Source: Roseomonas mucosa (GTDB lineage: Bacteria; Pseudomonadota; Alphaproteobacteria; Acetobacterales; Acetobacteraceae). From it: a stretch of DNA of 64,000 bases. Positions 46,660-59,166 of the stretch are shown piece by piece. The notes beneath the pieces are model-generated. The model was not told where the DNA came from, made no database searches, and worked only from the letters and a program-made list of their open reading frames with translations. Location: assembly GCA_945878375.1 (NCBI GenBank), contig CAMDWG010000006.1, positions 1 to 64,000 of the forward strand, in the 5' to 3' direction. Both the position numbers and the translations under genes were made by a program. The first letter of the stretch is position 1; each line of letters starts with the position of its first letter.

Positions 46660-48999
46660 TTGGGCAGCTGGCGCTTCGTCGGGCAATCCCTTCCGCGGAC
46701 CGAGGATCGCCGGCTGCTCACCGGGCTTGGCCGCTACACGGCGGACCTCGCGGCGGCGGATGCGTGCCGGCTCGTGGTGCTGCGTTCGCCGCATGCGGCG
46801 GCGCGCATCCGCGGCTTCGATGTCGCGGCCGCCGCGCGGATGCCGGGCGTGCGGCTGGTGCTGACGCCGGACGATCCAGACATCGCGCGGCTGGGCTGCT
46901 TCACCTCCAAGATCCGGCGCACGGCGCCGGATGGGTCGCCGAACTTCGTGCCTCCATACCGTTCGCTCTCGGCGGGCGTGGCGTGTTTCGTCGGCGATGC
47001 GGTCGCGGCCGTGGTGGCCGATACGCTGGCCCAGGCGAAAGATGCGGCGGAGGCGATCGTCATCGACTGGGGCACGCTGCCGGCGGTCTCCGACCTGCGC
47101 GCCGCCGTCCAACCCGGCGCGCCGACCGTATGGGCGGAGGCACCAGGCAATATCTGCTTCACGCAGGATGTCGGCGATCGCGCGGCGGTCCTTTCGGCGC
47201 TGGAGGGCGCGGCGCATCGCGTGACGCTGAGCTACCCGATCAGCCGCGTCACCGCCGCGCCGATGGAAACCCGCGCGGCGCTGGCCCGCTGGGATGCGGC
47301 GGAAGAACGCTACACGCTGGTCGCGCCGCTGCAGAACCCGCACTACCTGCGCGAGGAATATGCCGACCGCATTCTCGGTATTCCAGGACACCAGCTGCGC
47401 GTCATCTCGCCGGATGTCGGGGGCGCCTTCGGGCTCAAAGAATCGCCCTTCCCCGAATTCGGACTGGCGCTGGTCGCCGCGCGGCGGATCGGGCGCGAGG
47501 TGCTGTGGGTGGCGGATCGCAGCGAAGCCTTCCTCGGCGACCATCACGCCCGCGACATGCAGGCGACGGTCACGCTCGGCCTCGACGCGGACGGCATCTT
47601 CCAGGCGCTGCTGTATGAATGCGATTCCAACCTGGGCGCCTATCTGTCCTGGAACGGCACGCATGTGCCCGTGAACAATCTCGGCGGCCTGTCCGGCGTC
47701 TATCGCTGCCGTCGCGTCCATGCGCGGGTGCGCGGCGTCTTCACGCATACGCAGCCGACATCGCCCTATCGCGGCGCGGGACGACCAGAAGCGACCTATG
47801 CCATCGAACGCGCCATCGACCTGGCGGCGGCGCGAATGGGGCTCGATCCGGCCGAGTTGCGGCGGCGCAACCTGATCAGGCCGGAGCAGATGCCGTGGAA
47901 CACCGGCTTCATGTTCACCTACGACTCCGGCGAATTCGAACGGAACATGGATGACGCGCTGCATCTCGCGCAGTTGCCCGGACTGCCAGCGCGGCGCGAG
48001 GCGGCCCGGGCGCGCGGCAAGCTGCTCGGCTTCGGGATGGCCAATGCCATCGAGATTGCCAATGGCCCGATCACCGGCTGCCTGACCGAAAGCGCCGATA
48101 TCACCTTCGATTCCACGGGCGCGGCGACCATCACGCTCGGTGTGCATTCCCAGGGCCAGGGCCACATCACGACCTTCGCCCAGATCGCGGCCGATATGCT
48201 GGCGCTGACCCCGGATGCGATCCGCATCCGCCTGGGTGACACCGAGCAGATCGAACACGGCACGGGCACCTTCGGATCCCGTTCGGTCGTCGCCGCCGGC
48301 GCCGCGCTGTCGCGTGCGGCAGAGGGCATCGTCGCGCGCGGCAAGCGGATCGCCGCGCAGCGTCTGGAATGCGCGGAACCCGATATCGCCTTCGGACCGG
48401 ACGGTTTCTCCGTGACTGGCACGGATCGGCGCTTGTCGATGCGCGACGTGGCGCGACTGGCCTTCAGCCTGCCGCCCGCGCGGATCGGCGGGCTCGGCCT
48501 GTCGGAAAAGGCGATCGTCGCGCCGGATGCCGCGACCTTCCCCAATGGCTGCCACGCCTGTGAGGTGGAGGTGGACTCCGAGACCGGCGCCTGGACACTG
48601 ACGCGCTATGTCGTCGTGGACGATGTCGGGCGCGTCATCAACCCGAAGCTGGTGAAGGGCCAGATCCATGGCGGCGTCGCGCAGGGCGTGGGCCAGATCA
48701 TGGGGGAAGCGATCCGCTTCGATGCGGAAGGCGGCCAGCTGCTGTCGGGGTCCTTCATGGACTACCAGATGCCGCGCGCGCTCGACCTGCCTGCCATCGC
48801 CTGCAAGAGCAACGAGGTTCCGACCGCGCTGAACCCGCTCGGCGCCAAGGGGGCTGGCGAGGCCGGGACGGTCGGCGCGCTGGCCTGCGTCATCAACGCG
48901 CTGGTCGATGCGCTGCGGCCGCTCGGCGTGACGCATCTCGACATGCCGGCGACGGCGGAGACCGTCTGGCGCGCGATGCAGCAGGCGAAAGCCGCATGA
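46660..48999 (+). CDS. Xanthine-dehydrogenase-family molybdopterin subunit (orphan)
   Basis: 779 residues from a TTG at 46660 with GGAG 8 bases upstream; no ATG fits. It begins GQSLPRTEDRRLLTGLGRYTAD as in large molybdopterin subunits. PYRGAGRPEATYAIE and the C-terminal GAKGAGEAG (with the catalytic-type Glu) are present. The CO-dehydrogenase AYRCSFR loop is missing, so it is not a CO dehydrogenase. No FAD or 2Fe-2S subunit gene is adjacent. It overlaps the SDR gene by 4 bases. Substrate unknown. Confidence 0.88.
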   Translation: MGSWRFVGQSLPRTEDRRLLTGLGRYTADLAAADACRLVVLRSPHAAARIRGFDVAAAARMPGVRLVLTPDDPDIARLGCFTSKIRRTAPDGSPNFVPPYRSLSAGVACFVGDAVAAVVADTLAQAKDAAEAIVIDWGTLPAVSDLRAAVQPGAPTVWAEAPGNICFTQDVGDRAAVLSALEGAAHRVTLSYPISRVTAAPMETRAALARWDAAEERYTLVAPLQNPHYLREEYADRILGIPGHQLRVISPDVGGAFGLKESPFPEFGLALVAARRIGREVLWVADRSEAFLGDHHARDMQATVTLGLDADGIFQALLYECDSNLGAYLSWNGTHVPVNNLGGLSGVYRCRRVHARVRGVFTHTQPTSPYRGAGRPEATYAIERAIDLAAARMGLDPAELRRRNLIRPEQMPWNTGFMFTYDSGEFERNMDDALHLAQLPGLPARREAARARGKLLGFGMANAIEIANGPITGCLTESADITFDSTGAATITLGVHSQGQGHITTFAQIAADMLALTPDAIRIRLGDTEQIEHGTGTFGSRSVVAAGAALSRAAEGIVARGKRIAAQRLECAEPDIAFGPDGFSVTGTDRRLSMRDVARLAFSLPPARIGGLGLSEKAIVAPDAATFPNGCHACEVEVDSETGAWTLTRYVVVDDVGRVINPKLVKGQIHGGVAQGVGQIMGEAIRFDAEGGQLLSGSFMDYQMPRALDLPAIACKSNEVPTALNPLGAKGAGEAGTVGALACVINALVDALRPLGVTHLDMPATAETVWRAMQQAKAA

Positions 49000-51652: not shown

Positions 51653-52471
51653 ATGACCCCGGATGCCCAGCGGGACGACGACATCTACGAGGTGCACGCA
51701 ATCAAATACGCGCACAGCCCGCGTACGACAGGCGCGAATTTCCTGGGCGGCGATCCGCATGACCTGTCGCCGATGCCGCTCGATTACTTCGTCTGGCTGA
51801 TCCGCGGGCGGACGCGCAGCTTCGTGCTGGATACGGGCTTCGACCGCGAGGTCGCCGCGAAGCGTGGCCGGCAATTGATCCGCACGCCGGCGGAAGGGCT
51901 CGGCATGCTCGGCGTGGCTGCGGACAGCGTGCAGGACGTGATCCTGTCCCACATGCATTACGACCATGCCGGCAACCACGCCATGTTCCCCGCCGCGCGC
52001 TACCACATCCAGGATCGGGAAATGGCCTTCTGCACCGGCCGCTGCATGTGCCACGACACGATGCGCGCCCCCTTCGAGGCGACGGATGTCACCGCGATGG
52101 TACAGCGCGTCTTCGAAGGCCGCGCCTGCTTCCATGACGGCGCGGCGGAGATCGCGCCGGGGATCAGCCTGCACCATGTCGGCGGGCATTCACTGGGCCT
52201 GCAAGTGGTCCGCGTGCGGACGCGGCGCGGCTTCGTGGTGCTGGCCTCCGATGCGACACATTTCTACGCCCATGTCGAGCGGAAGCGGGTCTTCCCGATT
52301 GTCGCCGATGTGCCGGCCGTGCTGGCGGGCTACGAGACGCTGAACCGCCTCGCCTCCTCGCCAGCGCATATCATACCGGGGCACGACCCGCTGGTCCTGG
52401 CGCACTATCCGGCCTCGGCCCCGGGGCTCGAGGGGATCGCGGCCAGGCTGGATGCGGAGCCGCTGGACTAA
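51653..52471 (+). CDS. Metallo-beta-lactamase-fold hydrolase, AHL-lactonase-like
   Basis: 272 residues. The zinc motif H-x-H-x-D-H is seen in ILSHMHYDHAGNH. Further ligands lie at HHVGGHSLGLQ (His), LASDATHFY (Asp) and IIPGHDPLV (His). The overall order matches N-acyl-homoserine-lactone lactonases, but related proteins hydrolyse other lactones and esters. ATG 51653 follows a GGGAGGG site. A purely metabolic lactonase is equally possible here. Confidence 0.83.
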   Translation: MTPDAQRDDDIYEVHAIKYAHSPRTTGANFLGGDPHDLSPMPLDYFVWLIRGRTRSFVLDTGFDREVAAKRGRQLIRTPAEGLGMLGVAADSVQDVILSHMHYDHAGNHAMFPAARYHIQDREMAFCTGRCMCHDTMRAPFEATDVTAMVQRVFEGRACFHDGAAEIAPGISLHHVGGHSLGLQVVRVRTRRGFVVLASDATHFYAHVERKRVFPIVADVPAVLAGYETLNRLASSPAHIIPGHDPLVLAHYPASAPGLEGIAARLDAEPLD

Positions 52472-53457
52472 TCGGCGCGGATGCGCCCGGCCGTCACCAC
52501 GCGCTTCCAGCGTTCGAGTTCGGAGGCGGCAAGACGCGCATAATCCCCCGGCGGGCCACCGCGCGGCGTGGTGCCACGTTCGGCTAGCTGGCGGCGCAGC
52601 CCGGGATCGGCCAGCGTGGCCTGCAGCGCCGCCGACATCCGCGCCACCACGGCATCGGATGCCGAGCGGTGGGTGTGCAGCCCGAACCAGGCCTCGGCCT
52701 CGAAGCCCTGCAGGCCGAATTCGGCGCCGAGTTCCGACAGAGCCGGCACATCGGGTAGGTCCGGCAGCCGCTCACGTGAGGTGACGGCGAGCGCCACGAC
52801 GGTCCCGGCGCGGATCTGCGGCAGGGCGGTGGGCAGGTTGTCGATAAAGCTGTCAACCTCGCCGCCCATCACCGCGGTCATGCCGGGGCCCGCGCCGCGA
52901 TAAGGCACATGGGTGATCCGCACGCCCGCCAACTGGTTGATCAGCTCCCCCGTCAGATGCGTCGAGGTGCCGTTGCCGGCGGAGGCGAAGTTGCGCGTAT
53001 CCGGCGCGGCGCGGGCGGCACGCAGGAAGGCCCGCACATCGCCATTCGGCACCTTCTGCCGGTTCGCCACCCACACATTCGGCACGGTCACCAGCAGCGT
53101 CACCGCGCGGAAATCCGTGGTCGGGTTGTAGGGCAGGTTCGGATAGAGCGCCGGGCCAATGGCGTGGGACGCGATCTGCGACAGGAACAGCGCATGATCG
53201 TCGCCCTCCCGCGCGAAGCGGCCGGCAGAGAGCGTGCTGCCGGCGCCGGGCTGGTTCTCCACCACCACCTGGCGGCCGATCTGGGTCCGCAGCGCGGCGG
53301 CGACCAGCCGGGCCACCACATCCGTCGTGCCGCCGGGCGGGAAGGGCACGATCAGCCGCACATCGCGGCTGGGCCAGGAGTCCTGGGCCGAGGCCCCCGT
53401 TGCCGCAAGGGCCGTGGCTGCCCCGGCAAGCAGAGTGCGGCGTGTGACCGAAACCAT
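52468..53457 (-). CDS. Bug/TctC-family periplasmic receptor (orphan)
   Basis: 329 residues, signal TRRTLLAGAATALAATGASAQ, then DVRLIVPFPPGGTTDVVAR, VVENQPGAGSTLSAGRFARE and HVPYRGAGPGMTAVMGGEVD as in Bug receptors. ATG 53457; the frame extends far upstream through the nitrile-hydratase gene in antisense and that part is spurious. No adjacent TctAB. Convergent with the lactonase-like gene and divergent from the hydratase gene. Confidence 0.9.
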   Translation of the reverse strand: MVSVTRRTLLAGAATALAATGASAQDSWPSRDVRLIVPFPPGGTTDVVARLVAAALRTQIGRQVVVENQPGAGSTLSAGRFAREGDDHALFLSQIASHAIGPALYPNLPYNPTTDFRAVTLLVTVPNVWVANRQKVPNGDVRAFLRAARAAPDTRNFASAGNGTSTHLTGELINQLAGVRITHVPYRGAGPGMTAVMGGEVDSFIDNLPTALPQIRAGTVVALAVTSRERLPDLPDVPALSELGAEFGLQGFEAEAWFGLHTHRSASDAVVARMSAALQATLADPGLRRQLAERGTTPRGGPPGDYARLAASELERWKRVVTAGRIRAD

Positions 53458-53554: not shown

Positions 53555-53574
53555 CCCAGCCCCAGGAGACTCCG

Positions 53575-54603
53575 ATGGCCGCGTCGTACACCCCGCCCCC
53601 GCATGACATCGGCGGCCGCCACCACGCCCCGATCGCGCAGGAGGAACACGACTACGCGCATTGGGAGAAGGAGGCGGACGCGATCCGCATGCTGCTGGCC
53701 GATGGCCGGCGGCGCCTGTTCACCACCGATGAAAGCCGGCGCGTCCAGGAACAGCTGGACGACGAGACCTATTGGAAGACCCCGTATTACGAGCGCTGGA
53801 TCCATGCCTTCTCGACGCTGCTGATCGAGAAGGGCGTGCTGCCCCTGCCCCGGATCGAGGCAGAGGAAGCGCGGCTGCGCGCGGCCGGCGAGGACCGGGT
53901 GGAAGGCACCGCGGCCGGTGGCCATGCGGAGCACGATCATGATCACGATCATGATCACGACCATGATCACGACCATCCCTACCAGGAAGATCATGACGCG
54001 CATGTCGACATCCTCTCGCCGCTCCGGCTGCGTGCCATCGCGGTGCGGAACCTGCTGCTGGCCGATGGCGTGCTGACCCCGGCCGAGATCCGGGCCGAGA
54101 TCGAGCGGATGGACAGCCGCGGCACCCATAACGGCGCGCGTGTCGTCGCCCGCGCCTGGACCGACCCGGCCTTCGCCGCGCGGCTGGCCGAAGATGCGGG
54201 CTCGGCGGTGCAGGAATTGGGCCTCGCGAAGGGCGAGACCGTGTTGACCGCGCTGTTCAACACGCCAGAGACGCACAACCTCGTCGTCTGCACGCTGTGT
54301 TCCTGCTATCCGCGCAGCGTGCTGGGCCGGCCGCCGGCCTGGTACAAATCCCGCGCCTACCGCGCGCGGGCGGTGCGCGACCCGCGCGGTATCCTGGCGG
54401 AATTCGGCACCACCCTGCCGGACGGCACGACGATCCGCGTCCACGACAGCAATGGGGAACTACGCTACCTGGTCGTGCCCGAACGCCCGGCCGGCACCGA
54501 GGACTGGGACGAGGCGCGGCTGCAAACCCTTGTCACCCGCGACAGCATGATCGGCGTGGCGTTGCTCCAGGCCCCCGTGACGGAAGGAAACGACCCGCGA
54601 TGA
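53575..54603 (+). CDS. Cobalt-type nitrile hydratase / thiocyanate hydrolase-like single-chain fusion
   Basis: 342 residues, three parts. Residues 1-100 resemble the beta-subunit N-terminal domain (HDIGGRHH, ADAIRMLL, TPYYERWIHAFSTLLIEKG). Residues 117-143 are a His/Asp linker with ten to eleven His. Residues 145-342 are an alpha/gamma subunit with the metal motif VCTLCSCYP (C239, C242, C244), whose CTLC form indicates cobalt. The beta C-terminal barrel is missing and no gene for it follows. AGGAG precedes ATG 53575. It overlaps a cysteine hydrolase by 4 bases, suggesting nitrile to amide to acid. Whether it hydrates nitriles or cyanate-like substrates is open. Confidence 0.82.
   Translation: MAASYTPPPHDIGGRHHAPIAQEEHDYAHWEKEADAIRMLLADGRRRLFTTDESRRVQEQLDDETYWKTPYYERWIHAFSTLLIEKGVLPLPRIEAEEARLRAAGEDRVEGTAAGGHAEHDHDHDHDHDHDHDHPYQEDHDAHVDILSPLRLRAIAVRNLLLADGVLTPAEIRAEIERMDSRGTHNGARVVARAWTDPAFAARLAEDAGSAVQELGLAKGETVLTALFNTPETHNLVVCTLCSCYPRSVLGRPPAWYKSRAYRARAVRDPRGILAEFGTTLPDGTTIRVHDSNGELRYLVVPERPAGTEDWDEARLQTLVTRDSMIGVALLQAPVTEGNDPR
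53932..53976 (+). repeat. Tandem 12-bp repeat coding for the His-Asp linker
   Basis: Units CACGATCATGAT, CACGATCATGAT and CACGACCATGAT followed by a partial CACGACCAT. Repeated GATC/ATGATC units encode alternating His and Asp. The in-frame 12-base period means unit gain or loss would change linker length without a frameshift. Confidence 0.9.
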
Positions 54604-55292
54604 CCGACAAGCTCGAGAAATGGCGCGGCTATGTACCGGATGAGGAGCTGGAAACCTACCGCAAGGGCGGCTTCGCGCGCCGGATCGGCTTCGGCCGGCG
54701 GCCGGCGCTGCTCAACATCGACACGACCTACATGTTCGTCGATCCCGCCTATTCCCAATGCGGACGAGAGATGACGTCGCTGATGGCGGCGGTGACGCGG
54801 CTGACCGAAACCTTCCGCGCGCTCGACCTCCCGATCTACTACAGCCGCCGCGACGACCGGACCCACCCGACCTATCGCGGGCTGTGGAACGAGAAGCTCG
54901 GCACGGCCGGCGACTTCCAGTACAGCCGCGACAAGCGCGCGGATGAATGGCCCGATTCCTATGCCCCACGGCCGCAGGACCGGGTCATCTTCAAGAACAA
55001 GCCGAGCTGCTTCTTCCAGACGCCGCTCGACACCTTCCTGCGCTACGACGGCGTGGACACGCTGGTCATCTGCGGCATCTCCACCTCGGGCTGCGTGCGG
55101 CACGGCGCGGTGGACGCCTTCTCCCACAATTTCCGTCCCATCCTGGTCGAGGAAGCCTGCGGCGACCGCAGCCCCCAGGCGCACAAGGCCAACCTGTTCG
55201 ACATGGACATGAAGTTCTGCGACGTGGAGCGGCTGGACTATGTCCTGGCGCAGCTCGCGGCCTATGGGGGGGCGACGCGCGCCGCCGAATAG
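54600..55292 (+). CDS. Isochorismatase-family cysteine hydrolase (amidohydrolase-like)
   Basis: 230 residues. Asp in ALLNIDTTYMFVD, Lys in DRVIFKNKPSCFFQTPL and nucleophile Cys in VICGISTSGCVRHGA form the expected triad. Similar in layout to N-carbamoylsarcosine and maleamate amidohydrolases. ATGA overlap with the hydratase gene makes it the natural candidate for hydrolysing the amide formed from a nitrile. Distinct from the copy at 35711. Confidence 0.88.
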   Translation: MTDKLEKWRGYVPDEELETYRKGGFARRIGFGRRPALLNIDTTYMFVDPAYSQCGREMTSLMAAVTRLTETFRALDLPIYYSRRDDRTHPTYRGLWNEKLGTAGDFQYSRDKRADEWPDSYAPRPQDRVIFKNKPSCFFQTPLDTFLRYDGVDTLVICGISTSGCVRHGAVDAFSHNFRPILVEEACGDRSPQAHKANLFDMDMKFCDVERLDYVLAQLAAYGGATRAAE

Positions 55293-55415: not shown

Positions 55416-56291
55416 ATGAAGTGGCCGCCCTTCGCATATCTTCGGGCCGGGAGCCTGGACGATGTCTGGCGCGCCCAGGCCGACTACGGTCCGGGCGCGC
55501 AACTTGTCGCCGGCGGGCAGACGCTGCTCGCGACGCTCGCCTTCCGCCTTTCGGAACCGAGCATCCTGGTGGACATCACGCGGGTTCCGGAGCTGGCGGG
55601 GATCACCCTCGGCGATGGTGCGCTCCGCATCGGCGCGCTGACGCGCCATGCCGAGCTTGGCCGCGACCCGCTGGTGGCAAGGCATGCCCCGCTGCTGGTG
55701 CAAGCCGTCCCGCTGATCGCCCATCCGGCGATCCGCAACCGGGGCACGATCGGCGGAAGCCTCGCCTATGCCGATCCGGCGGCCGAGCTGCCGGCCTGCA
55801 TCGTGGCGCTTGATGCCACCCTGGTCCTCTGCTCGCCGCGCGGCCAGCGGCGGGTGCCCGCCCGCGATTTCTTCACCGGCCTGTTCGAGACCGCCTTGCA
55901 GGCGGATGAGCTGATCGCCGCCGTCGAGGTGCCCTGCGCCACCCCCGCGACGCGCGTCGCCATCGACGAGGTTGCGCGGCGGTCGGGTGACTATGCGATG
56001 GCCGGCCTCGCGGCCTGCCTGACGCTGGGCGCGGATGGGGTGGTGGCGTCACCGCGGCTCGTCTGCTTCGGGGTCGGCACCGGCCCCGTCTCGGCAGGGC
56101 GCGCGGCCGCGGCCCTGGCGGGCCGCCCGCTGACGCAGGAGAGCATTGCGTCGGCCACGGCGGCGCTGGATGGCGATCTCGACCCGCCCGCCGACCTGCA
56201 TGGACCGCCCGAGATGAAGCTGCATCTCGTGCGCGTCCTGCTCCGGCGAACCCTGACCCGCTTCCTCCCTGCGCAGGAGAACGCCGCATGA
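55416..56291 (+). CDS. Molybdenum hydroxylase FAD-binding subunit
   Basis: 291 residues. FAD motifs AQLVAGGQTLLATL and NRGTIGGSLAYADPAAELPA are those of medium subunits of xanthine-dehydrogenase/CO-dehydrogenase-type enzymes. Transfers electrons from the 2Fe-2S subunit. Overlaps the ferredoxin-type subunit gene by 4 bases. Confidence 0.92.
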   Translation: MKWPPFAYLRAGSLDDVWRAQADYGPGAQLVAGGQTLLATLAFRLSEPSILVDITRVPELAGITLGDGALRIGALTRHAELGRDPLVARHAPLLVQAVPLIAHPAIRNRGTIGGSLAYADPAAELPACIVALDATLVLCSPRGQRRVPARDFFTGLFETALQADELIAAVEVPCATPATRVAIDEVARRSGDYAMAGLAACLTLGADGVVASPRLVCFGVGTGPVSAGRAAAALAGRPLTQESIASATAALDGDLDPPADLHGPPEMKLHLVRVLLRRTLTRFLPAQENAA

Positions 56292-56773
56292 CTGCGCGCA
56301 TGGACATCACCCTGACGGTCAATGGCGAACGCGTCACGCGCAGCGTGGAGCCGCGCCGACACCTGATCGATTTCCTCCGCACCGATCTGGGCCTGACGGG
56401 CAGCCATGCCGGCTGCGAGCATGGCGTCTGCGGCGCCTGCACGGTGCGCGTCGATGGCGAGATCGTGCGCGGCTGCCTGGTGCTGGCCGCGAGCCTCGAC
56501 GGCGCCGAGGTGACGACGATCGAGGGCCTGACCGACAGCGGCGAGGTCGCGGACCTGCAGGCCGCCTTCGTCGCACGCAATGCCGCGCAATGCGGCTTCT
56601 GCACGCCCGGCATGGTGATGGCGGCGGCCGATATCCTGCGCCACCACGCTGATGCCGATCGCGGCGCGATCCGCGAACACCTCTCGGGCAATTACTGCCG
56701 GTGCACCGGCTACCAGGCGATCGTGGACGCGGTGGAGCAGACCCTGGCCGCCCGGAAGGAAGCCGCGCGATGA
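56288..56773 (+). CDS. Molybdenum hydroxylase 2Fe-2S subunit
   Basis: 161 residues with two [2Fe-2S] sites: CEHGVCGACTVRVDGEIVRGC (plant-ferredoxin type) and CGFCTPGM ... CRCTGY (helical domain). A typical small subunit of the family. It overlaps both neighbours by 4 bases. Confidence 0.94.
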   Translation: MTARMDITLTVNGERVTRSVEPRRHLIDFLRTDLGLTGSHAGCEHGVCGACTVRVDGEIVRGCLVLAASLDGAEVTTIEGLTDSGEVADLQAAFVARNAAQCGFCTPGMVMAAADILRHHADADRGAIREHLSGNYCRCTGYQAIVDAVEQTLAARKEAAR

Positions 56774-59166
56774 ACGACATGCCGACGCCGGAGAGCATCG
56801 GGCTCTCGCGTGCCGACCTGCCGAATTCCTATATCGGCCGCTCCGTGCCGCGCCCCAACGTGCCGAAGCTGGTCCAGGGCCGCGCGACCTATACGGACGA
56901 TGTGGCGCTGCCGCGCATGGTGCATGCGGCCTTCCTTCGCAGCCCCCACGCGCATGCGCGCATCATCTCTGTCGATGCGGCGGCAGCGCGGGCCGTGCCG
57001 GGCGTGGTGCGCGTTTTCACCGGTGCCGACATCGCGGCGCTCTGCGATCCCTGGGTGGCGACGCTCGAGCACCTGAAGGGCATGAAGTCCGCGCCGCAAT
57101 ACCCGCTGCCGCTGGACCGCGCGACCTGGCAGGGCGAGCCGCTGGTGGCCGTGGTGGCCGAAAGCCGTGCGGCAGCGGAAGATGGCGTGGCCGCGCTCGA
57201 TGTGCGGTTCGAGCCCCTGCCCGCGCAGCTCGACATGGAAACGGCGCTCGATCCAGATGCGGTGGTGATCCATCCGCAGCTCGGCGACAACCTGGTCTTC
57301 ACGCGCACCGCCGAGAAGGGCGATGTCGCCGCCGCCTTCGCCGCCGCCCACCGGGTGGTGGAAGCCACCTTCGTCACCGCGCGCCATACCGGCGTAACTC
57401 TGGAACCGCGCAGCATCCTGGCCGACTACAACCGCGCCGAGGGCACGCTGACGGTGCATCACTCCACCCAGGCGCCGCACATGATGCAAGGCGTCTTCGC
57501 GAAGCAGCTGCGGATGGACGAATCCCAGGTGCGCGTCATCTGCAAGGATGTGGGCGGGTCCTTCGGCATCAAGGTGCATGTCTACCCGGACGAGGTCGCC
57601 GTCGCCGCCATGTCGAAGGCGATGGGGCGGCCGGTGAAGTTCATCGCCGACCGGTTCGAGAGCTTCGTCTCCGACATCCATGCGCGCGACCACCGCATCA
57701 CCGGGCGCATCGCGGTGGATGCGGAGGGCAAGATCCTCGGCTTCGACATCGATGACCGCACGGGCATCGGGCCCTATTCCGTCTACCCCCGCACCAGCGC
57801 CATCGAGGGCAACCAGGTGGTGAACCTGTGCGGCGGGCCCTATGACTTCGCCAATTACCGCTGCACCACCACCGTCGTGCTGCAGAACAAGGCGCCGACC
57901 TGCCAGTACCGCGCCGTCGGCCACCCCATCGCGACCACGGTCACGGAAGGGCTGGTGGATCTGGCGGCGGAGGCGCTCGGCCTCGATCCGGTCGAGATCC
58001 GGCGCCGAAACCTCATTCGCGACGATGCCTATCCCTATACCTCGCCGCCCGGCATGCGCTTCGAGGGGCTGTCGCACCATGCGGCGCTGGACAAGCTGCT
58101 GGCGATGGTGCCCCTCGACCGGATCCGGGCCGACCAGGCGGAACAGCGCCGGAAGGGCATCCATCGCGGCTTCGGCATCGCCAGCTTCATCGAGCTGACC
58201 AACCCCTCCCCCTTCATGTACGGCATCGGCGGGGCGCGCATCTCCGCGCAGGATGGTGCGACGGTGCGGATGGATCCGGACGGCTCTGTCGTCGTGATGT
58301 CGGGGGTCACGGAACAGGGCCAGGGGACGGAAGCGATCCTCGCCCAGATCGTGGCGCATGGCGTCGGCGTGCCGGCCAACCGCGTGAAGGTCATCACCGG
58401 CGACACCCAGACGACACCCTATGGCGGCGGCACCTGGGCCTGCCGCGGCGCCGGCATCGGCGGAGAGGCTGCGCTGCAATCCGCCATCGCGCTGAAGCAG
58501 CAGATCCTGCAGGTGGCCGGCACCATGCTGCAGGCCGCGCCGGACAGCCTCGACATCGTCATGGGCCAGGTGGTGGACCGCGACACCGGCCGGGACCGCA
58601 TCGCGCTGTCCGAGATCGGGCGCATCGTCTATTTCCGCGGCGATACGCTGCCGAAGGACCTGCCGCGCGAATTCGTGCAGACGCGCCACTTCATCACCAA
58701 GGACTATCCCTTCGCCTTCACCAACGGCATCCAGGCCAGCTGGGTGGAAGTCGATACCGACACAGGCATGGTGAAGCTGCTGGAGCATTGGTGCGTCGAG
58801 GATTGCGGGCGCGTCATCAATCCGATGCTGGTGGACGAACAGGTGCGCGGCGGCATCGTGCAGGGCCTGGGCGGCGCGCTGTACGAGCATTGCGTCTATG
58901 ATGGCCAGGGTAACCTGCTGACCACGACCATGGCCGACTACCTCGTGCCGATGTCGGCCGAGATGCCGGAGATGCATGTGGGCCATGTCGAGACGCCGAC
59001 GAAGGAAAGCCTGCTCGGCGCCAAGGGCGCCGGCGAAGCCGGGACTGCCGGCGCGCCGGCCGCCGTGATGAACGCGATCAACGACGCGCTGCGCCCGCTG
59101 GCCGCGCGCGTGCTCGAACAACCCTTCACGCCCGCGCGCATCCTGCGTGCGCTGGGCCGCATCTGA
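56770..59166 (+). CDS. Molybdenum hydroxylase molybdopterin subunit
   Basis: 798 residues. PRPNVPKLVQGRATYTDDVAL at the N-terminus, QYRAVGHPIATTVTEG in the substrate loop and GAKGAGEAGTAGAPAAVMNA near the C-terminus with the catalytic-type Glu. No AYRCSFR, so not a CO dehydrogenase. Hydroxylates an aromatic or N-heterocyclic or aldehyde substrate; which one is not visible. Completes the three-subunit enzyme. Confidence 0.92.
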   Translation: MNDMPTPESIGLSRADLPNSYIGRSVPRPNVPKLVQGRATYTDDVALPRMVHAAFLRSPHAHARIISVDAAAARAVPGVVRVFTGADIAALCDPWVATLEHLKGMKSAPQYPLPLDRATWQGEPLVAVVAESRAAAEDGVAALDVRFEPLPAQLDMETALDPDAVVIHPQLGDNLVFTRTAEKGDVAAAFAAAHRVVEATFVTARHTGVTLEPRSILADYNRAEGTLTVHHSTQAPHMMQGVFAKQLRMDESQVRVICKDVGGSFGIKVHVYPDEVAVAAMSKAMGRPVKFIADRFESFVSDIHARDHRITGRIAVDAEGKILGFDIDDRTGIGPYSVYPRTSAIEGNQVVNLCGGPYDFANYRCTTTVVLQNKAPTCQYRAVGHPIATTVTEGLVDLAAEALGLDPVEIRRRNLIRDDAYPYTSPPGMRFEGLSHHAALDKLLAMVPLDRIRADQAEQRRKGIHRGFGIASFIELTNPSPFMYGIGGARISAQDGATVRMDPDGSVVVMSGVTEQGQGTEAILAQIVAHGVGVPANRVKVITGDTQTTPYGGGTWACRGAGIGGEAALQSAIALKQQILQVAGTMLQAAPDSLDIVMGQVVDRDTGRDRIALSEIGRIVYFRGDTLPKDLPREFVQTRHFITKDYPFAFTNGIQASWVEVDTDTGMVKLLEHWCVEDCGRVINPMLVDEQVRGGIVQGLGGALYEHCVYDGQGNLLTTTMADYLVPMSAEMPEMHVGHVETPTKESLLGAKGAGEAGTAGAPAAVMNAINDALRPLAARVLEQPFTPARILRALGRI

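Follow-up and report, generated by a model that had tools for sequence, protein, structure and literature searches.

The 64,000-nucleotide stretch of Roseomonas mucosa DNA analysed here (the window) carries a natural fusion of the N-terminal domain of a beta subunit (betaN) to the His-tailed alpha subunit of a cobalt-type enzyme of the nitrile hydratase (NHase) family. Nitrile hydratase is cobalt-dependent and catalyses the addition of water to nitriles. The reading that we favour, at somewhat better than even confidence and on the basis of sequence comparison, is that this fusion and a C-terminal beta domain (betaC) encoded in trans make up a two-polypeptide NHase-type enzyme. The fused protein, most likely incomplete alone, would assemble with the SH3-like betaC in a layout that amounts to a two-polypeptide version of the three-chain thiocyanate hydrolase (SCNase). 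Its alpha domain would bind cobalt via the motif CTLCSC, and the two "claw" arginines of the active site would come one from the fused chain (R55) and the other from an HxR motif of betaC. The substrate would be a nitrile, and in the window's organism a coupled isochorismatase-type hydrolase could cleave the amide formed.

The fused gene lies at positions 53575..54603 of the forward strand, exactly the frame given in the initial annotation, and encodes 342 residues plus a stop codon from an ATG start. Three observations make it look like a real gene: G+C content at third codon positions is 0.85 (0.86-0.90 in three neighbours), an AGGAGA resembling a Shine-Dalgarno sequence (53564..53569, forward strand) stands 5 bases ahead of the ATG, and the frame is intact in 33 of the 37 orthologous fused loci, L077-L113 (the frame test took in L077-L111). 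A chance open reading frame or frame artefact is ruled out by these intact orthologues together with the coding composition. Among the remaining loci, L090, L112, and L113 run off their contigs; L081, from a metagenome bin, has a frameshift in the alpha part of the fused gene (L081:10001-10792), due either to sequencing error or to decay. A premature stop suspected in L013 turned out to be the normal end of the gene.

The domain structure proposed initially was borne out by a Pfam scan. The NHase_beta_N model matches residues 9-104 (53599..53886, forward strand) with 67.4 bits against a cut-off of 21.5, which excludes the possibility that residues 1-100 are unrelated to beta subunits. A complete alpha domain follows in the same bacterial chain (residues 151-329, 54025..54561, forward strand; NHase_alpha, 256 bits against a cut-off of 27.2), and within it, at residues 239-244 (54289..54306, forward strand), is the metal-binding motif CTLCSC, which we take to be of the cobalt type by its Thr. 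The motif is invariant in all 25 aligned fused proteins, an alignment made without that of genome G045. The betaC barrel is missing from the fused chain, as had been noted: no NHase_beta_C match was found at E values up to 1, and so the chain, unlike the eukaryote-type fusions, does not join a complete beta subunit, with both its N and its C part, to alpha. The structure model of the fused protein (mean pLDDT of 73.6, pTM of 0.63) has its best solved matches among Co-type NHase alpha chains, with E values from 8.9e-18; matches to NHase and SCNase beta chains are weak, with E values from 0.018.

What the fused chain lacks can be judged from the claw arginines. The available text of PMC7587978 describes two beta arginines that hold the oxidised active-site cysteines of NHase; both are said there to be needed, activity being lost when one of them is altered. 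R55 of the fused chain aligns with beta-Arg52 of the Pseudomonas putida enzyme (3qxe_B) and does not vary among the 25 fused proteins that were aligned. By the same alignment the second arginine lies in an HxR motif of betaC, the numbering in both cases being our own reading, and the fused chain alone is without it. Since both arginines are said to be required in NHase and the second, by this alignment, lies in betaC, betaC is likely to be needed.

A search for a split beta C-domain gene elsewhere in the genome, as the initial annotation had proposed, found one on a different contig (C1). It belongs to a second NHase-type cluster, betaN-betaC-alpha, at about 380270-381430 (L036:8267-9428, reverse strand), in which the beta subunit is split into two small genes (betaN of 97 residues, betaC of 94) followed by an alpha gene without a His tail (194-201 residues, depending on the start). 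No other betaC was found in the window's genome. The same annotation had named a full beta subunit plus an activator gene elsewhere as evidence that would count against its proposal; the beta parts do exist, in this second cluster with its own alpha gene, while none of 24 genomes has an NHase activator over the TIGR03889 cut-off in a search run without a positive control.

To look for a hidden betaC, 15 betaC sequences were searched against the window and 46 loci, with flanks of up to 10 kb per side and often less. None was found in the 64-kb window or in the fetched flanks of any of the 37 fused loci, and the same scan detected betaC at nine of nine unfused control loci; a betaC hidden near the fusion is thus ruled out for the window and these 37 loci. 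In trans, exactly one betaC is present in all 20 of the family's fusion genomes and in each of four more, three of which have a fusion while the fourth is unfused, that is, one in each of the 23 fusion genomes examined. This co-occurrence is weak evidence of pairing, because in 19 of the 20 family genomes a second betaN adjoins the betaC. In the window's genome, identity between the alpha domain of the fusion and that of the split cluster is only 57%, and it is therefore not obvious that one betaC would serve both.

The one-contig genome G045 serves as a natural experiment. It has a single alpha match and a single betaN match genome-wide, and both are the fused gene. In contig coordinates its betaC is some 2.3 Mb from the fusion, flanked by an amidase gene and transporter genes; the syntenic site of G125, a genome of the same genus, holds betaN-betaC-alpha. 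The G045 betaC is intact (101 residues) and sits within a decayed split cluster (L074:8044-8640), of which there remain about 16-26 codons from the start of betaN (tblastn E value of 1.7e-4) and 26-50 codons from the end of alpha (E value of 8.7e-7), the latter without the metal motif. Between G045 and G125, identity is 80% for betaC, 84-90% for five neighbours, and 78% for the fused protein. Changes at codon positions 1/2/3 number 3/4/5 in the betaN remnant and 11/5/6 in the alpha remnant, where the third position is not favoured, compared to 14/5/36 in betaC, where most are at the third. Changes at first and second positions amount to 23/84 in the remnants versus 19/190 in betaC (Fisher p of 0.0004), and dN/dS for betaC is 0.111/0.70 (NG86). 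Given its intact frame and third-position bias, against the unbiased changes in the remnants, betaC has apparently been kept under constraint in G045 while its cis partners decayed. The split cluster is kept in the other two genomes of this genus that were examined.

Counting against the two-polypeptide reading, G045 is a single case, and its fusion (L023) has CMLCSC, whereas all 19 others of the 20 in the family have CTLCSC. Its fused protein has evolved about twice as fast as those of two congeners (end branch of 0.26 versus 0.13 and 0.13), and its betaC is also faster (dN of 0.111 versus 0.044 between G125 and G176, NG86). Because of the altered motif and the faster evolution of both proteins, the G045 fusion itself may be altered, and a function in decay is conceivable there.

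The chain had been described initially as a single-chain protein. That it works by itself or as a homo-oligomer, with betaC dispensable, we consider unlikely, although no fused locus has a betaC in cis, the fused gene has neighbours of its own, and "solo-subunit" NHases are mentioned in the accessible part of a review (PMC7193024). With the second claw arginine placed in betaC by alignment, with betaC kept in the 23 fusion genomes examined, and with betaC alone outliving the split alpha and betaN in G045, the single-chain label is probably wrong. More doubtful still is a role in maturation, in which the betaN-like part would act as an activator and the fusion would load cobalt into, or swap alpha into, the split enzyme. 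NHase activators of the P14K type bind alpha, according to the portion of PMC4709657 at hand, and the lack of any activator over the cut-off in the 24 genomes (again, a search without a positive control), the presence of the His/Asp tract, and sub-threshold activator matches of the betaN part of the fusions in 3 of the 24 genomes are all consistent with such a role. The betaN part of the window protein, however, scores 67.4 bits on NHase_beta_N versus 13 bits on the activator model, the conserved transport neighbour described below points to an enzyme, and G045 has no other alpha left to mature.

We give similarly little credence to the possibility that the same modules form a hydrolase of thiocyanate, or of a similar small C-N compound. 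Each part has its counterpart in SCNase, betaN matching chain B, betaC chain A, and alpha chain C, and 2dd4_B is the best beta match after four P. putida entries. The fused alpha part, however, reaches neither NCBIfam equivalog cut-off, scoring 246.9 bits on the nitrile model, just below its cut-off of 249.85, but 184.4 bits on the thiocyanate hydrolase gamma-subunit model, for which the cut-off is 291.45. The coupled amidase-like hydrolase, a coupling seen in the window only, would also suit an amide product. The two-polypeptide NHase-type enzyme remains our preferred reading, at the confidence given above.

The two domains of the fused protein are joined by a His/Asp tract at residues 117-143 (53923..54003, forward strand), with 11 His and 11 Asp at the junction, mostly as (HD) repeats. 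Residues 110-144 of the model fall below a pLDDT of 50, as in disordered stretches, and the tract is thus probably disordered. Its position matches that of the His tail on free alpha subunits. In relatives, a similar tract opens the free alpha subunits, among them the alpha of the G125 split cluster (L070) and those of several other genera, and by alignment the P. putida alpha chain (3qxe) has a short His-rich N-terminal tail. Among 33 unfused alpha sequences, 28 carry 5-14 His within the 70 residues ahead of the domain, counted in the open frame rather than from a start codon and in a list that leans to His tails, part of it having been picked from the best matches to a tract-containing query. 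The remaining ones include the three split alphas read from the window's own genus, which have little His there (1, 1, and 4 in 70 residues). The linker reported initially is thus present, with its 11 His at the junction, but it is not special to the fusion; the His tails on many unfused alphas rule out an invention of the fusion. As a tract of the same type starts the free alphas of relatives, this one is best regarded as the tail of an alpha subunit that the fusion has retained. A putative cobalt-chaperone role of betaN or of the tract is possible, given that no activator gene exceeded the cut-off in the 24 genomes. The (His)17 stretch of the Monosiga protein is described in the accessible part of PMC7193024 as not needed for metal incorporation.

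The window's fusion is one of many in its family. When the fused protein was searched against 397 genomes of the family, 223 gave some match, mostly to alpha subunits alone, and at least 20, the window's own counted, were found to have the fusion, although weaker fusions could be missed at this depth. The other 19 are 68-83% identical to the window protein (that of G331 is cut by a contig end), and the family's fusions occur in Falsiroseomonas, Roseomonas, Neoroseomonas, and Elioraea. In an order-wide sample, 28 of 395 genomes passed a threshold of E 1e-75, two of them matching the alpha part only and 26 with fusions, including a partly covered one in G1191. From a named collection came 46 loci, of which 37 are fusions (L077-L113), hosted by the same four genera and by metagenome bins. 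A class-wide sample of 385 genomes added fusions in at least three genomes (G421, G552, and G649) of one further alphaproteobacterial family, f26, with two copies in two of the three. The motif is CTLCSC in two of these fusions (L124 and L127) and CSLCSC, presumably the iron-type form, in the others (L128, L139, and L140). No fusion beyond the Alphaproteobacteria was found in 398 phylum-wide genomes at E values of 1e-72 or below, a threshold at which weaker ones could be missed. In a fourth genome of the class-wide sample, G604 (L123), betaN and a stop codon are followed directly by a His-tailed alpha, adjacent and unfused with no betaC between them, an arrangement that resembles the fusion in unfused form.

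When 58 alpha domains were placed in a tree, the fusions fell into separate, supported clades, the 20 from the family in one and the five from f26 in the other, and forcing them into one clade costs 23.9 log units (AU p of 0.027). A single origin of all the fusions is accordingly disfavoured. Two independent origins, each without betaC and each with a His-rich junction, are favoured by these results though not proved.

Downstream of the fused gene, an isochorismatase-family hydrolase of 230 residues is encoded at 54600..55292 on the same strand, and its start overlaps the fused-gene stop (ATGA). The best solved relative is N-carbamoylsarcosine amidohydrolase (E value of 1.4e-34), and the hydrolase is a possible co-translated partner of the fused gene in the window. 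Orthologues near 13 of the 37 fused loci lie on the other strand or beyond the transport gene; the stop-start overlap was seen in the window only, and the coupling was rejected as a general feature. On the other side, divergent from the fused gene, is a TctC/Bug-type solute-binding protein (52468..53457, reverse strand), an orthologue of which stands beside the fused gene in 34 of the 37 loci; in the other three, the contigs begin at the fused gene or immediately ahead of it. The combination of an uptake protein, a hydratase, and an amidase would fit the use of a nitrile or a related compound.

Several other genes were seen in these neighbourhoods. An RraA-like gene recurs beside TctC, with one cluster of open reading frames found in 15 of 36 loci (L077-L112; for example L081:8130-8888, reverse strand), the assignment having been checked by Pfam for one cluster member. 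Two molybdenum hydroxylase-like sets of the xanthine dehydrogenase family flank the fused gene in the window (55416-59166 and 46660-48999), one of them in the same direction and just downstream of the hydrolase; the one protein of these sets that was scanned (56770-59163) is below all cut-offs. At 51653-52471 is a metallo-beta-lactamase-fold protein that resembles AHL lactonases and 4-pyridoxolactonase, far below the curated cut-offs.

The arrangement can be compared with several known systems. The Co-type NHase of P. putida (3qxe) shares with the fused chain an alpha with CTLCSC and a His-rich N-terminal tail and a betaN whose R52/E56 have equivalents, but in 3qxe betaN and betaC form one chain and alpha is separate, whereas here betaN and alpha are fused and betaC is encoded elsewhere. 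Thiocyanate hydrolase of Thiobacillus thioparus (2dd4) has the same modules, with chain B corresponding to betaN, A to betaC, and C to alpha, on three separate chains; the fusion combines two of the three into one, and the split cluster of the window's genome, like thiocyanate hydrolase, has three genes. The split betaN-betaC-alpha clusters of the same family also have these modules, including a His-tailed alpha in G125, but as three overlapping genes without a fusion. Beta-alpha fusion NHases are known from Monosiga brevicollis and other eukaryotes, and the available parts of the reports (PMC2603476 and PMC3323583) describe the same 5'-beta-alpha-3' order and, in several, a His-rich stretch between the parts. 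In the Monosiga fusion, unlike in the bacterial chain, both subunits are reported there as complete, betaC included, and in this respect the architecture is indeed distinct from that of the eukaryotic fusions, as first suggested.

Literature searches found no bacterial betaN-alpha fusion named in the titles or abstract openings of the papers listed, and nothing on a Roseomonas nitrile hydratase. As the excerpted part of PMC4009401 names NHase 3QXE in a list of complexes with subunits that some other species has in fused form, such an NHase fusion may already have been counted in databases. As far as the literature searched shows, the bacterial combination of a betaN-alpha fusion and a betaC in trans is a new variant.

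NHases are industrial catalysts whose cobalt uptake and subunit assembly are still under study. With betaN fused to alpha, betaC separate, and no activator found so far, the fusion offers a test of which part loads cobalt (betaN, the His tail, or an external activator) and a ready-made test of betaC as an exchangeable part, for which G045 provides a minimal natural two-gene set for reconstitution. We also put forward, tentatively and knowing that it could well be wrong, a wider picture in which one free betaC would serve, within one cell, both the split betaN/alpha pair and the fusion, giving two enzymes of different substrate range; the fusion would have arisen at least twice, and the older partner would have been discarded in G045.
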